Shown here one piece after another: positions 9,422 to 20,382 of a stretch of DNA of 64,000 nt. The translations under genes and the position numbers were made by a program. Source of the DNA: Oscillospiraceae bacterium MB08-C2-2 (GTDB lineage Bacteria > Bacillota > Clostridia > Oscillospirales > Ruminococcaceae); the NCBI GenBank assembly GCA_035621215.1, contig CP141729.1, positions 2,812,944-2,876,943 on the forward strand, read 5' to 3'. Under the pieces are notes generated by a model that was not told the origin of the DNA, made no database searches, and was given only the letters and a program-made list of their open reading frames with translations. Within the stretch, counting starts at the first letter, position 1. Every line of letters starts with the position of its first letter.

Positions 9422-9592
9422 ATGGCATATTTTATCAATGATGAGTGCATTAGCTGTGGCGCCTGCGAATCCGAGTGCCCTGTCAGCTGCATTTCCGAGG
9501 GCGAAGGCAAGTTTGTTATCGATGAGGGTGCTTGTATCGACTGCGGTTCCTGCGCTGGCGTGTGCCCTGTTCAGGCTCCCAATCCTCGCTAA
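9422..9592 (+). CDS. 2[4Fe-4S] ferredoxin
   Basis: A 56-residue clostridial-type ferredoxin. Two CxxCxxCxxxC motifs (CISCGACESEC-P and CIDCGSCAGVC-P) each bind a [4Fe-4S] cluster. It carries low-potential electrons in the cytoplasm for hydrogenase, pyruvate:ferredoxin oxidoreductase and similar enzymes, consistent with an anaerobic host. AGGAGG lies 10 bases before the ATG, and its own terminator follows, so it is a single-gene, probably highly expressed transcript. Confidence 0.97.
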   Translation: MAYFINDECISCGACESECPVSCISEGEGKFVIDEGACIDCGSCAGVCPVQAPNPR

Positions 9593-9625: not shown

Positions 9626-9660
9626 AAAAAGCAGACCACATCCGTGGCCTGCTTTTTTCT
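9626..9660 (+). terminator. Rho-independent terminator of the ferredoxin gene
   Basis: AAAAAGCAG-A-CCAC and GTGG-C-CTGCTTTTTT form the stem with a four-base loop and a T-run. Confidence 0.88.
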
Positions 9661-9802: not shown

Positions 9803-10069
9803 TATATAATGTCCACTGAACAAATGCGCTTTGCGAAGCGCATTTGCAAACAGAGCAGTTTTCGCTCTGTTTGACGGCAAAACAGGCCTGTTTTGCCGTT
9901 TCAGAACCATTGATTGGCTGCCTGAAAAGATTTGCGGACACACGCCTACAATCCTTTGTGCAAGGTTTTTTGCCGTATTCGGTGAAAAACCTTGCACCTA
10001 AACAATTCAAAAACGCTGCCAAGGTACTGCAGTTGTTACGTTTTTGAATTGTTTAGCAGACATTATATA
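9803..10069. repeat. 267-bp array of tandem perfect hairpins closed by an outer inverted repeat
   Basis: Outer arms TATATAATGTC (9803-9813) and GACATTATATA (10059-10069) enclose a run of palindromes. These are 11-bp arms at 9821-9831/9836-9846, 10-bp arms at 9847-9856/9864-9873 and a zero-loop 13-bp palindrome at 9874-9899. A weak 6-bp pair follows at 9899-9904/9922-9927, then 13-bp arms at 9958-9970/9985-9997 and 17-bp arms at 9999-10015/10039-10055. The named major arms pair perfectly. No open frame of interest crosses it. It lies between the ferredoxin terminator and the Maf-gene promoter. A smaller element of the same design is at 39346-39417. I know no named family with this layout. Confidence 0.85.
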
Positions 10070-10165: not shown

Positions 10166-10194
10166 TTGTAACCCTTGATTTTTTATGATACAAT
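10166..10194 (+). promoter_or_regulatory. Probable promoter of the Maf/DUF115 operon
   Basis: TTGTAA (10166-10171) and TACAAT (10189-10194) are 17 bases apart, about 45 bases before the AGGAGG and ATG of the downstream gene. Confidence 0.55.
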
Positions 10195-10237
10195 TATTTT
10201 GTTTCTCACTGGAATTTACTGCCTTAGGAGGATGCTC

Positions 10238-12202
10238 ATGTTTGTCACCAAGGATTTTACCCAGCCTGAAAAAATGCTGATTCAGATGGAGACCCTCCCC
10301 AAGGATGAACCCATTACCGTAGAAATCAGCCGGGATGGGCTGCCGGTGGTGCGGGTAGAGCAGGGGGATAAAAAGCTGTATTTAGGCAGTAAATACAGCG
10401 CCGCCGGGGATGTGCAGCAGGTGGTGGCAGAGGCCGCTGAAATGCTGCCCAACAGCACTGTGATTGTGTTTGGCCTTGGCAATGGGGAATACATAAAGAA
10501 AATTACCCCCACCTTTTTAAACAACAACTTGCTGGTTATTCTGGAGCCGAATCTGGAGGTTATCCGTGCCTTTCTGGCCGGGTCAGGGGTGCGGCGCATC
10601 AAGCGGGGAGACCCGGTTATCCTATACCATGTATCGGAAGAGGATTTGCCGGCAATTTCCCGCCACATTCAACAGGATAGCAACCGAAGCATAAAATTTA
10701 TAGTACACCCCGGTTATACCCGGGCCTATCCCCAGTTGGTCAAATCCGCTGCTGCTATGGTGGTGGAAAGCCAGAAAAGCATTATACTCGAGGATAACAC
10801 ATGGGATTTGTTTGTGTATGACTGGGTGGATAACCCCATTCGCAACATCCGCTATATACCCAGCGCTTACCCTTTGAATGACTTTGTAGAAACCCAGAAG
10901 GGATGCCCGGCGGTTATTGTTTCGGCGGGACCCTCCTTATCTAAAAATATCCACCTGCTTGAAAAGGTGAAGGAACAGTTTGTTATTATTTCGGGTGGAC
11001 GGCCCTTGCGGCCGCTTTTGGATTTGAATATCCACCCGGATTTTGTATGCATCATCGATGCGGGAAAGGCCTCCTTCAATTTGGTGGATGGTGTTTTGCC
11101 CAAAGCGGATACCACCCTTATCCATTACGACAGAATCCCCGCCGATATTTTTGAGCAATATCAGGGGCGGCATGTTTTTTATACCGATAACCCCGCCTAT
11201 GATAAGATTTTCGGGCGGCCCATCGGCAATATGATTACCGGCACCACGGTGGCGCATGCTTCGGTTTTCGCCGCTTTGAATATGGGCTGCAACCCCATCA
11301 TTTTTATCGGGCAGGATTTGGCCTTTACCGATGACCGGAACCATGCCGGGCTCACCAGCTTTGATTTTGATAAGCAGGATCAGAAAAAGCTGGTGGAAGC
11401 GGATGATAATGTTTGGGTTGAGGATATCCACGGTGGGCAGGTAAAAACCAGCCACCTGTATAATCAGTTCCGCCAGACCATTGAAGAGATTATTACCCAG
11501 AATCCTGGTACCACCTTTATCAATGCCACCCAGGGCGGAGCCAACATTAAGGGCACGGCGGTAATGGATTTGGATGAGGCCATCCGACTGTATGAAAACG
11601 CGCCGGTAAAAAATCTGGATTTTGAGAATCATGAGAAAATTGGCCATCAAGAGGAATTTGAGGATTATAAACGAGGCCTGCTCAAAAAATACCAGGATAT
11701 GGGCAAAGAGATTGAGGGAGCTTTTGACTACAGCGATAAGCTGCTCATTGCAGAAAGCGCCGGGAACAGTGCGGGGATGTATAAGCATTCCAAACGGCTC
11801 AATAAGCTGGAAAATAAAATGAGCCGGCTGGTTTCGGAGGATTCTATGCTGCAATCTCTGGTGGCTTCCTCCTTCAAGAAAATTAAGCGCAACAATGAAT
11901 TGCTTCTTACCGGACGAGAAACGGTTCGAGAGGCGGCTCTCAAAGGTTATGAGCGCAGAAGTGAGCTGTATTCTGCCTATAAAGTAGCCAGTGCCTATCT
12001 GGTAAAAATGCTCAAGAAAGAGCTGGGCCTTTGGACAGAGGAGGACGAGAGACTGGATCAGGAGCAAGCTCAAATGCCGCAGGGTGGAGCTGCCCCTTTG
12101 TCACTGGTGGAGAGCATGAATATAGCCGGTATGAGTGCCGCATTAAAAGATGCTTTGAAAGACTGGGAGGAAATCGCCAATGGAAATGACCAATCCCGCT
12201 GA
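10238..12202 (+). CDS. Maf/DUF115-family motility-associated glycosyltransferase-like protein
   Basis: A 654-residue cytoplasmic protein. The central DUF115 (Maf_flag10) domain, about residues 210-430, shows KGCPAVIVSAGPSLSKN near the start and NPIIFIGQDLAFTDDRNHA later, the blocks typical of this family. Maf proteins glycosylate flagellin or other surface proteins with nonulosonic acids in known cases, but no flagellar or sugar-nucleotide genes are nearby, so the target here is unknown. ATG 10238 is chosen because AGGAGG is six bases upstream; the frame opens 21 codons earlier without such a site. The 3' end overlaps a small gene by 23 bases. Confidence 0.88.
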   Translation: MFVTKDFTQPEKMLIQMETLPKDEPITVEISRDGLPVVRVEQGDKKLYLGSKYSAAGDVQQVVAEAAEMLPNSTVIVFGLGNGEYIKKITPTFLNNNLLVILEPNLEVIRAFLAGSGVRRIKRGDPVILYHVSEEDLPAISRHIQQDSNRSIKFIVHPGYTRAYPQLVKSAAAMVVESQKSIILEDNTWDLFVYDWVDNPIRNIRYIPSAYPLNDFVETQKGCPAVIVSAGPSLSKNIHLLEKVKEQFVIISGGRPLRPLLDLNIHPDFVCIIDAGKASFNLVDGVLPKADTTLIHYDRIPADIFEQYQGRHVFYTDNPAYDKIFGRPIGNMITGTTVAHASVFAALNMGCNPIIFIGQDLAFTDDRNHAGLTSFDFDKQDQKKLVEADDNVWVEDIHGGQVKTSHLYNQFRQTIEEIITQNPGTTFINATQGGANIKGTAVMDLDEAIRLYENAPVKNLDFENHEKIGHQEEFEDYKRGLLKKYQDMGKEIEGAFDYSDKLLIAESAGNSAGMYKHSKRLNKLENKMSRLVSEDSMLQSLVASSFKKIKRNNELLLTGRETVREAALKGYERRSELYSAYKVASAYLVKMLKKELGLWTEEDERLDQEQAQMPQGGAAPLSLVESMNIAGMSAALKDALKDWEEIANGNDQSR

Positions 12203-12644: not shown

Positions 12645-12733
<89 letters not shown>

Positions 12734-12854: not shown

Positions 12855-12945
12855 GGAGAAGTACTCAAGTTGGTGACGAGGCGCCCCTGCTAAGGGCGTA
12901 GGGTGGGCAACTGCCGCGAGAGTTCGAGTCTCTCCTTCTCCGCCA
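12855..12945 (+). tRNA. tRNA-Ser (anticodon GCT)
   Basis: The acceptor stem GGAGAAG pairs with CTTCTCC. The anticodon arm CGCCC-CTGCTAA-GGGCG gives anticodon GCT. A long variable arm, a TTCGAGT T-loop and an encoded CCA at 12943-12945 are present. It lies 121 bases after the tRNA-Ser(TGA) gene and marks the left edge of an accessory region. Confidence 0.95.
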
Positions 12946-18300: not shown

Positions 18301-19320
18301 TCAGCTGAACATCATGGCTAAGGGATTGGAGTTAACGGCAGCTTGAAGTTGATTGTCGTCGACATGCGTATATATTTCTGTTGTAGCAATACTTTCATGG
18401 CCAAGAATTTGTTGTAATGATCGAATATCTACATGACCATATTTATACATAAGAGTTGCAGACGTGTGTCGGAGCTTGTGGGTGGATAGACCTTCTGGAT
18501 TAATGCCAGAAGCAAGAATATGCTTTTTAACAACATTTTGAATAGAACGAGTAGAAAGCCTCTGGTGATTCCGGGAAATAAATAGTGCATTGGTATCTAT
18601 ATTCATGGAGTTGCGTACAGGAAGCCACTTTGACAAGGCTTGCTTTACTGATGGCGTCATATAAATTTTTCACTCTTTGTTGCCTTTTCCAATGACAGTT
18701 AAAACATCATTTTCAATCTGCTCGACGTTAAGTGCCGCCAATTCAGATAGGCGCAGAGCACAGTTTAGAAATATTGTGAGGATGCAATTATCGCGTACAG
18801 AACTGGAGCCTGCTTGAATTAGAAGCCGCACCGATTCCTTTAAGGTCATACAGCGAACAATACGCTTTGGTAGCGTTGGTGTCTCCAATCCTTCGGCAAT
18901 GTTGTTATCAATGATATGAGCCTTAGCTTTGAGATGCTTCCAAAACTGCCGAATTGACACGATCTTTCTGCATCGTGTACCCGGAGAATTATGAAGCGTT
19001 TCCAGATGATATGAAATGAAGCCGTACATATCTGTTAATTGTATGGAACGAATAAAATCTGCATCTGCAAACTGAAAATGTGTTTCAGTAATGCCTCTTT
19101 GCACTGCAACATATCGGAAAAACTGAAGCAAGTCCATTCTGTATTCAAGGATTGTATTTTGGCTTTGGCCTTTGATTATAACGAGATAATCTAGATACTG
19201 CTCTAGTATTGGGCAAGTTTTATCAGACTGCATATTATCACCCGATGTGGAGTATAGGCTGCGTTCATTACCGACATACAGTGAATTGAACTTTTGGTAA
19301 AACCAATTTACCGTTCGCAT
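18301..19320 (-). pseudogene. Tyrosine recombinase (XerC/D type), split by an in-frame TGA
   Basis: The two open frames (18670-19320 and 18301-18660) are in the same frame, separated only by TGA at 18672-18670 plus three sense codons. Read through, they give a full-size 340-residue tyrosine recombinase: a SAM-like N-terminal domain, a catalytic Arg block (LNCALRLSELAALNVEQI), VIGKGNKE, then HKLRHTSATLMYKYG, LGHESIATTEIYTH and the terminal nucleophile Tyr. Related proteins have Arg right after GKGNKE, so a CGA-to-TGA change is the likely cause. The stop splits the catalytic domain. Product probably inactive unless the stop is read through. Confidence 0.85.
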
Positions 19321-19369
19321 TTGTAGCTTCGAAATGATAGCAAATTATGTAAAATTATGATACTATTTA

Positions 19370-19400
19370 AACAGAGGATAATTACAAATTATCCTCTGTT
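19370..19400. terminator. Perfect 14-bp hairpin between the recombinase genes
   Basis: AACAGAGGATAATT and AATTATCCTCTGTT with a three-base loop. It lacks a long T-run on either strand and lies between the two decayed recombinases; it could be a terminator or a recombination-site component. Confidence 0.5.
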
Positions 19401-20382
19401 CATAAACAAGCTAAAAAAGCAAAGCTCCCGCATCAGCAGGAGCTTTTGGCTATATTGTAATTCGATTTCTTGGATGTTTATTTTCATAATGCTTCGTTGT
19501 TTGCTTAGTGAAACATGGGCATATATTTGAGTCGTTGTAATAGAACTATGTCCCAGAATACTTTGTATGTAGCGAATATCTACATCCTCTTCTGCATTAG
19601 AGTTGCAAATGAATGTCTAATCATATGAGGGGTAATGTGCTCAGGGATTTTTGCCCTGTTTGCATAAACATCGATCATAATTCGCACCGATTGCTCATTT
19701 AACCGATTTCCCAAACGATTGATAAAAAACCAATCTGTGTCTGAAATGATCTTGCAGTAAGTATTCTTATAGGTTCGTAAAGCAGATAATGCATCGATAT
19801 TGCTGATAAAAACGATTCGTTCTTTTGCGCCTTTGCCTTGAACCTTAACAAAGCCATTTTTAAGATCTATGCTTTGAGGCGTGATTGAACACAACTCTGA
19901 CACACGCAGACCCGTTGCAAACAGCAGTTCCAACACAGCAATGTCGCGTAGGTTTGTATTGTGTTGATATTGGGTTTGGGGCTTCTCTAAAGCTTGATAG
20001 GCCACTTTGAGAAGCCTTTTAATTGTATTTAAGGGAAGAGACCTCGGTAAGGCAATCGGTTCACGGAAATCTAAGTGGATTTTACTTATAGGATTTGATT
20101 CAATTTGTTCATCAAAATCTAGATAATTTATAAATGCCCGAATACAAGCAATTTTCCGTTTTACCGTTTTGGGCTTAAATTTTGTATGTAGTTACTAATA
20201 CAAGATTTTGTGAAAGGCTCCTGTTCGTCTGCGCAGTAGCTTTTAAACTGATCTAAATCAATGCGGTAGGCCTTAATGGTCTTTTTATTTAATTTTTTTG
20301 AAACTGACAAAAATTGAGATAATTGCGGATATGGTCTGTGAGCTGATTCATATGATTCCTCCTGATTTTGAGCTGGAATCAT
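19389..20382 (-). pseudogene. Second tyrosine recombinase, broken by two frameshifts
   Basis: Three pieces in different frames add up to one XerC/D-like recombinase. Residues 1-73 (20382-20161) hold the SAM-like DNA-binding start. The frame then shifts near 20165-20175, and 20160-19580 continues with KRKIACIRAFINYLDFD and the catalytic LFATGLRVSELCSI and HMIRHSFATLM. A second shift near 19600 leads into EEDVDIRYIQSILGHSSITT and QIYAHVSL, which carries the nucleophile Tyr. It is not translatable as one protein. Together with the preceding pseudogene it is a tandem recombinase pair, an arrangement seen in some site-specific transposons and integrated elements. Confidence 0.85.

Follow-up and report, generated by a model that had tools for sequence, protein, structure and literature searches.

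A probable MITE-like mobile element with six conserved hairpins in Oscillospiraceae and Ruminococcus-type genomes

Among the small mobile DNAs of bacteria, miniature inverted-repeat transposable elements (MITEs) usually, but not necessarily, have a parent element that shares their ends. The ERIC/RU and Correia-type elements are small mobile repeats with inverted ends, whereas REP/REPIN sequences are moved by RAYT and carry GTAG- or CGTC-tagged palindromes. In integrons, the attC site is recognised as a folded strand. Excerpts of the published reports describe bcr1 and other Bacillus cereus group repeats as mobile-like, intergenic, MITE-like and specific to this group, and they link the mobility of bcr elements to a TTTAT motif (PMC6542083, PMC3446304). 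Excerpts likewise present RU-1 to RU-3 as small mobile repeats with inverted ends (PMC2759123) and REP/REPIN as palindromic mobile DNA (PMC3116915, PMC3733652), the REP units being 20-40 bp long (PMC3733652). In this study, we analysed a stretch of 64,000 nucleotides from Oscillospiraceae bacterium MB08-C2-2 (contig CP141729.1, positions 2,812,944 to 2,876,943; hereafter the window), in which a first-pass annotation, made from the letters alone, had marked a 267-bp block of tandem hairpins. We consider it very probable that this block is a small MITE-like non-autonomous transposable element, for which we infer a transposase and a role of the fold. Its class is an ordinary one, but its shape is unusual and strongly conserved.

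Compared with MITEs, the element is alike in being short, gene-less, multicopy and mostly intergenic, with terminal inverted repeats and target duplications. It differs in its six hairpins, arranged in two groups of three and kept over many genera at near-constant length, and in that no parent insertion sequence was found in the assemblies searched (see below). Within the published excerpts, bcr1 is the nearest described Gram-positive parallel that we found; here, however, insertion is at TA-N(2-3)-TA, the hosts are Oscillospiraceae and Ruminococcus-type bacteria, and the flanks of 89 copies do not follow the TTTAT motif. ERIC/RU and Correia-type elements have other ends, hosts and internal design. 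Unlike REP/REPIN, the full-length copies, which are gene-less and span 230-261 bp, have different ends, terminal inverted repeats and target duplications. The folded-strand recognition of attC is a conceptual parallel only: a target duplication is made here, and a link to integrons was neither seen nor searched for. A literature search, judged by titles and the openings of abstracts, found no published description of this family.

The home genome (two contigs, 3.29 Mb) carries the element at many positions. Ten places, the window included, matched 263-267 of the 267 bases with 86-100% identity, and further places matched only part of the block as shortened copies. The exact end was found 14 times in forward and 15 times in reverse orientation, compared with 0 for the reversed control. 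Of 28 exact ends of the form TAATGYCYRCTRAACAA that were listed, two belong to the window element and 15 of the 26 others to the other nine near-full-length copies; the remaining ends border shortened copies, stand alone, or border elements with different insides. Two elements of the home genome, at C1:1360742-1361002 (261 bp, L026) and C1:2581211-2581468 (258 bp, L039), have the same ends and different insides, and L039 folds less well.

We gathered 89 distinct copies whose two ends are separated by 225-285 bp and have at most 4 mismatches between them in total; because they were chosen by their ends, they are no separate test of the terminal inverted repeats. A crude 8-mer rule gave 27 clusters and split off one copy (L009) that clearly groups with the other home-genome copies. 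In some cases two species carry one and the same ancestral insertion (common flanks in L114 and L139), and loci L162-L241 were fetched with a pattern that includes the second hairpin, H2. The results showed a direct repeat of 2-3 bp at the ends of 79 copies, whereas random re-pairing of the flanks gave a mean of 20.9 and a maximum of 33. TA-repeat-TA was present on both sides in 67 copies (random re-pairing: mean 7.3, maximum 17). The flanks place the termini TAATG...CATTA inside TA-N(2-3)-TA, and because TA is also the first dinucleotide of the element, the duplicated stretch may be taken as 2-3 bp or, with the TAs counted in, as 6-7 bp. Among the 44 copies with at least 800 bp of flank on each side, 9 lay inside open reading frames (ORFs) of at least 120 aa, compared with 80% of random points.

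Filled and empty versions of two sites were found in relatives. In genome G114, the first site reads ttaGTA[258 bp]GTAtag, and the same site is empty in G141, G193 and G325, with a single TAGTATA; G261 carries the insertion at this GTA site with an inner deletion. The second site, ttaTAA[258 bp]TAAtac in G193, is empty in G141 and G261, where the duplicated bases are single. G114 is also element-free at this TAA site, with a less similar right flank, and G325 gave no alignment spanning the junction. For the window's own site, no empty counterpart was found in ten own-genus genomes, of which six matched, solely at the upstream ferredoxin region. Dispersed copies with 17-bp inverted ends, inserted mostly between genes at TA-N(2-3)-TA with 2-3 bp duplicated (6-7 bp with the TAs), are thus observed, and the dispersed copies, target duplications and two empty sites together indicate a MITE-like non-autonomous mobile element. 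This agrees with the first-pass suggestion of a mobile palindromic element.

The same flanks bear on a different explanation, in which a tyrosine or serine recombinase of the site-specific kind moves the element as a cassette; crossover would take place in the core TA-N(2-3)-TA, and the enzyme would bind the ends as inverted arms. Joined ends would give CAT-TANNNTA-ATG, an inverted repeat about a 6-7-bp core, and the targets have the same core. However, the middle bases of the core vary among the copies of one genome yet agree on both sides of most copies, and cores of 2 and 3 bp coexist in G289. Variable, flank-matched cores of differing length are not expected from a recombinase whose overlap is fixed, and we regard such a cassette as very improbable.

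Relatives were found in other Oscillospiraceae and Ruminococcus-type genomes, with common 17-bp ends (TAATGYNYRCTRAAYAA), hairpin order and length. The exact end pattern occurred in 34 of 394 genomes of the order, in 18 of them as a single match that may be due to chance. Counts of forward and reverse ends were 22+25 in G289 and 31+27 in G314, where the reversed control gave 0; in at least six other genomes of the order the reversed control pattern did match. Scanning named genomes for the H1-H2 junction gave at least 80 loci, those listed being titled as Clostridia-type organisms; Flavonifractor, Intestinimonas, Pseudoflavonifractor, Dysosmobacter, Ruminococcus, Oscillospiraceae, Clostridiales and Eubacteriales were among the matches listed. 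Across a sample of the phylum, 4 of 398 genomes had the junction with at most one mismatch, namely the home genome, one more of the order, and two with single one-mismatch matches elsewhere. A control pattern matched three genomes of this sample, so the two matches outside the order are at chance level. One query each of plasmids, phages and viral contigs returned no match to the element.

Some further observations were made in these genomes. A relative of 424 bp in Ruminococcus sp. UBA946 (L235, 2235-2658) has more successive hairpins between the same ends. Loci L051, L219 and L231 contain runs of N inside the element, as if the copies or the fold had defeated the assemblers. A separate 17-mer, AAATGCTTGCTGCGCAA, is repeated at ten or more places in G289 and possibly belongs to another repeat family.

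Table 1. Anatomy of the window copy (positions within the window)
Feature	Position	Strand	Details	Basis
Whole mobile element	9807..10065	minus (canonical direction, H1 first)	259 bp	ten near-full-length genome copies; edges from target duplications and relatives' empty sites
Target duplication, left copy	9805..9806		2 bp, TA (readable as TATA, 9803-9806)	flanks read
Target duplication, right copy	10066..10067		2 bp, TA (readable as TATA, 10066-10069)	flanks read
Terminal inverted repeat	9807..9823	+	TAATGTCCACTGAACAA, 17 bp	sequence and end searches
Terminal inverted repeat	10049..10065	minus	TAATGTCTGCTAAACAA, 17 bp	sequence and end searches
Hairpin H1	9998..10056	minus	arms 9998-10015/10039-10056, 18 bp, loop 23; overlaps terminal repeat	consensus fold of ten copies
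Hairpin H2	9958..9997	minus	GTGCAAGG...CCTTGCAC; arms 9958-9970/9985-9997, 13 bp perfect, 18 bp at 89%	
Hairpin H3	9927..9957 (about)	minus	imperfect here, pairs better in sister copies	consensus fold
Middle spacer	9900..9926		partial complements of both ends	end-to-middle pairing in the window copy is at chance level
Hairpin H4	9874..9899	minus	arms 9874-9886/9887-9899, 13 bp, no loop	
Hairpin H5	9847..9873	minus	arms 9847-9856/9864-9873, 10 bp	
Hairpin H6	9821..9846	minus	arms 9821-9831/9836-9846, 11 bp; overlaps terminal repeat	

The anatomy of the window copy is given in Table 1. The first-pass annotation had described five perfect tandem hairpins, one of them without a loop, within an 11-bp outer inverted repeat. 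All five are present, including the loop-less one, although the longest arm is 18 bp and not 17, and a sixth, imperfect hairpin (H3) lies between the third and the fourth. The outer inverted repeat is exact over 11 bp (9803-9813/10059-10069), but the TATA on either side is target-site sequence and the element proper lies inside it. The block was also said to exceed chance, and it does: its folding z was -11.5 as DNA and -10.1 as RNA, 0 of 200 shuffles being equally stable in each case, and a simple scan of the window (arms of at least 10 bp, loops of at most 25) found 24 hairpins, five of them packed into the 259 bp of the element. A terminator cluster and a CRISPR array were rejected, because the arms differ, no T-runs follow the hairpins and there are no identical repeated units. 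For these and for attC, the annotation's negative judgement agrees with our reading of the sequence, which involved no dedicated attC or CRISPR test.

This architecture is widely kept. Among the 89 copies, 65 were 257-261 bp long, 15 were 246-249 bp and 9 had other lengths. Minimum-energy folds contained six hairpins (at least 6 bp) in 67 copies, seven in 8, five in 12, four in one and three in one. The 27 cluster representatives showed the same tendency, with six hairpins in 20, seven in two (both from the home genome, including the window copy), five in four and three in L039, and hairpin positions were nearly equal across most of them. The order is end, H1, H2, H3, middle, H4, H5, H6, end. 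A recognisable H2 (at most 2 mismatches) was found in 87 of the 89 copies, loci L162-L241 having been preselected for it, and H2 is the non-end hairpin whose sequence stays recognisable in nearly all clusters; the other arms, outside the end-derived parts, diverge between clusters, often unrecognisably. Copies of the Flavonifractor type form two consecutive three-armed folds: TAATGCGTA, at the tip of the left end, pairs with the middle sequence TACGCATTG, and the right end has a partner of its own. RNAalifold on the ten window-genome copies gave the identical two-part design with shorter closing stems. These results indicate that the six-hairpin set is general, and that it is chiefly the Flavonifractor-type branch in which the left closing stem is well supported.

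We then examined covariation in 22 chosen Flavonifractor-type and related copies. Pairing was kept in 95.1% of 2293 cells, and 48 of 105 pairs were altered on both sides. Doubly changed cells numbered 159, compared with 38 in shuffles (0 of 500 reached the observed value) and 8-28 with slid partners; since related sequences can exceed shuffles, the shuffle count is not a probability, whereas the slid control retains relatedness. In the left-end-to-middle closing stem (helix 1, about 140 nt apart), one pair was doubly changed in three sequences. Paired sites changed less than unpaired sites in all six families analysed, for example 0.024 versus 0.064 per site and copy in G289 and 0.061 versus 0.086 in the home genome. 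Both of the things that the first-pass annotation had proposed to look for in relatives, copies and covariation, were therefore found.

Departures from pairing were counted in the six families (62 copies), giving 68 distinct G-T and 67 A-C events; another 24 events, whose starting pair was G-T (17 to Watson-Crick, 7 other), lie outside this comparison. The largest Flavonifractor-type family had 30 G-T versus 23 A-C events and G314 had 8 versus 12, while the diverse alignment A4 showed a mild G-T excess (77 versus 49 cells; 40 versus 37 pair positions). A transcribed strand selected as RNA is expected to favour G-T clearly. Because G-T was no commoner than A-C, the pattern argues for DNA folding or DNA-level repair of the arms rather than RNA, and pairing is more likely kept at the DNA level. 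The idea of a mobile structured RNA, whose folded transcript would act or move, accords with the RNA folding z, the covariation, the mostly intergenic location, and the G-T excess in A4 and in the largest family. Against it stand the equal totals over six families, the A-C lead in G314 and the missing strong G-T preference. In addition, an Rfam scan of the window returned two tRNAs only and nothing in the element, and in seven relative loci one neighbouring tRNA exceeded its gathering score while matches within the element were far below theirs. The multi-arm RNA proposed in the first pass is thus not borne out, and we consider an RNA element quite improbable.

Several results, in this paragraph and the next, weigh against the reading of the block as a MITE-like element with a functional fold. 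Nine of the 89 copies have no recognisable duplication. Closing stems were compared with shuffles in 25 of the 27 representatives (two unoriented ones were omitted): the left stem surpassed these in 15 representatives and the right stem in 3, and the window type passed on neither side. Furthermore, hairpins with paired changes can be created and maintained by template switching, as described in an excerpt of the published work (PMC8794818), so that matched arms may arise without selection. The hairpins could accordingly be a by-product, MITE palindromes held perfect by template-switch repair during replication with their shape unselected. The near-perfect arms, the absent wobble bias and the palindromic 48-51-bp forms described below, which look like fold-back copies of one end, are consistent with this. 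However, such repair is at odds with exactly six hairpins in 67 of 89 copies at near-equal positions in the cluster representatives, with an almost constant overall length, and with the doubly changed pair in the left closing stem, whose sides lie so far apart. On balance, we find it rather unlikely that the shape is only a by-product. The selection on DNA hairpins suggested in the first pass fits the covariation and the absent wobble bias, but arm repair by template switching could do likewise.

The remaining counter-evidence concerns the mobilising enzyme. No gene-carrying copy was recognised among the end matches listed for G000 (the home genome) and G289 (at most 3 mismatches), G222, G114 and G261 (at most 2) and G314 (at most 1); the draft assemblies among these break in the repeats. 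In every kilobase-spaced end pair noticed in G000 and G289, one end or both had 3 mismatches; among the ordinary genes between such weak pairs are those for a transport permease, DnaX- and RecR-like proteins, CinA and transketolase. In ten kilobase stretches (nine from G000 and G289, one from G314), a Pfam search of 20 of the 33 ORFs found no transposase family, and three ORFs had no match. Two end pairs of 3.5 kb were rejected as autonomous partners: the one in G314 C17 starts in a 117-bp short copy and joins truncated copies, and the one in L174 joins separate copies. Sixteen unpaired ends were likewise rejected as traces of a partner, being truncated or decayed copies, copies cut by contig ends, or lone ends without element sequence. 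As no gene-carrying copy was recognised and the weak pairs hold ordinary genes, the enzyme is an inferred one. The element could also be related by internal deletion to a known insertion sequence family, the parent being absent from the assemblies used. Since these repeats lie at the ends of many contigs, a parent might have escaped notice; on the other hand, none was recognised in the home assembly of two contigs or in G222 (a 2.28-Mb contig), and the gene-less design recurs in most of the 27 clusters. We hold this origin to be a tentative possibility, somewhat short of an even chance.

Short forms were also present in the loci scanned. There were 28 copies of 48-213 bp with proper ends, 25 of them with a direct repeat of 2-4 bp (a place held twice was counted once, and one overlapping row was omitted). 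Single-hairpin forms of 48 bp with two right ends were found in G289, and forms of 51 bp with two left ends in G031; one of the two 48-bp forms and two of the three 51-bp forms showed a duplication. Two like ends cannot arise by simple inner deletion, which suggests that an end was copied by fold-back or that a single hairpin can move. A more specific proposal is transposition on a folded single strand, in which the end duplex would lie in a three-armed fold, either strand would be usable, the minimal form would be the 48-51-bp hairpin with two like ends, and a resident protein encoded outside the element would read the shape and the 17-bp ends. We consider this specific mechanism unlikely.

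For the MITE-like element itself, we propose the following steps. A transposase made elsewhere in the cell would recognise the element ends and move the element. The six hairpins, in two groups of three, would matter when the DNA is single-stranded or extruded, and the fold might, for example, present the end as duplex DNA within the folded strand. The hairpins would then be kept at the DNA level and not as an RNA product.

The window element lies between two genes. Upstream, the gene for a 4Fe-4S ferredoxin (9422-9592) has a terminator-like hairpin of its own behind it (9626-9657); on the other side is an MptE-like protein gene (ORF 10175-12202). Tandem tRNA-Ser genes (12645-12733 and 12855-12945; anticodons TGA and GCT) are located about 2.6 kb from the element. 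On the minus strand at 18301-20005, three neighbouring ORFs (18301-18660, 18670-19320 and 19580-20005) resemble pieces of tyrosine recombinases, as judged by eye.

If this reading is true, the element is a mobile element of gut-type bacteria whose shape is better conserved than its sequence. As a natural test case, it could show whether selection acts on DNA secondary structure in a transposon or whether template switching alone maintains it, and the family would point to a mobilising enzyme. Its copies may also explain some of the assembly breaks in the metagenome genomes of this group.
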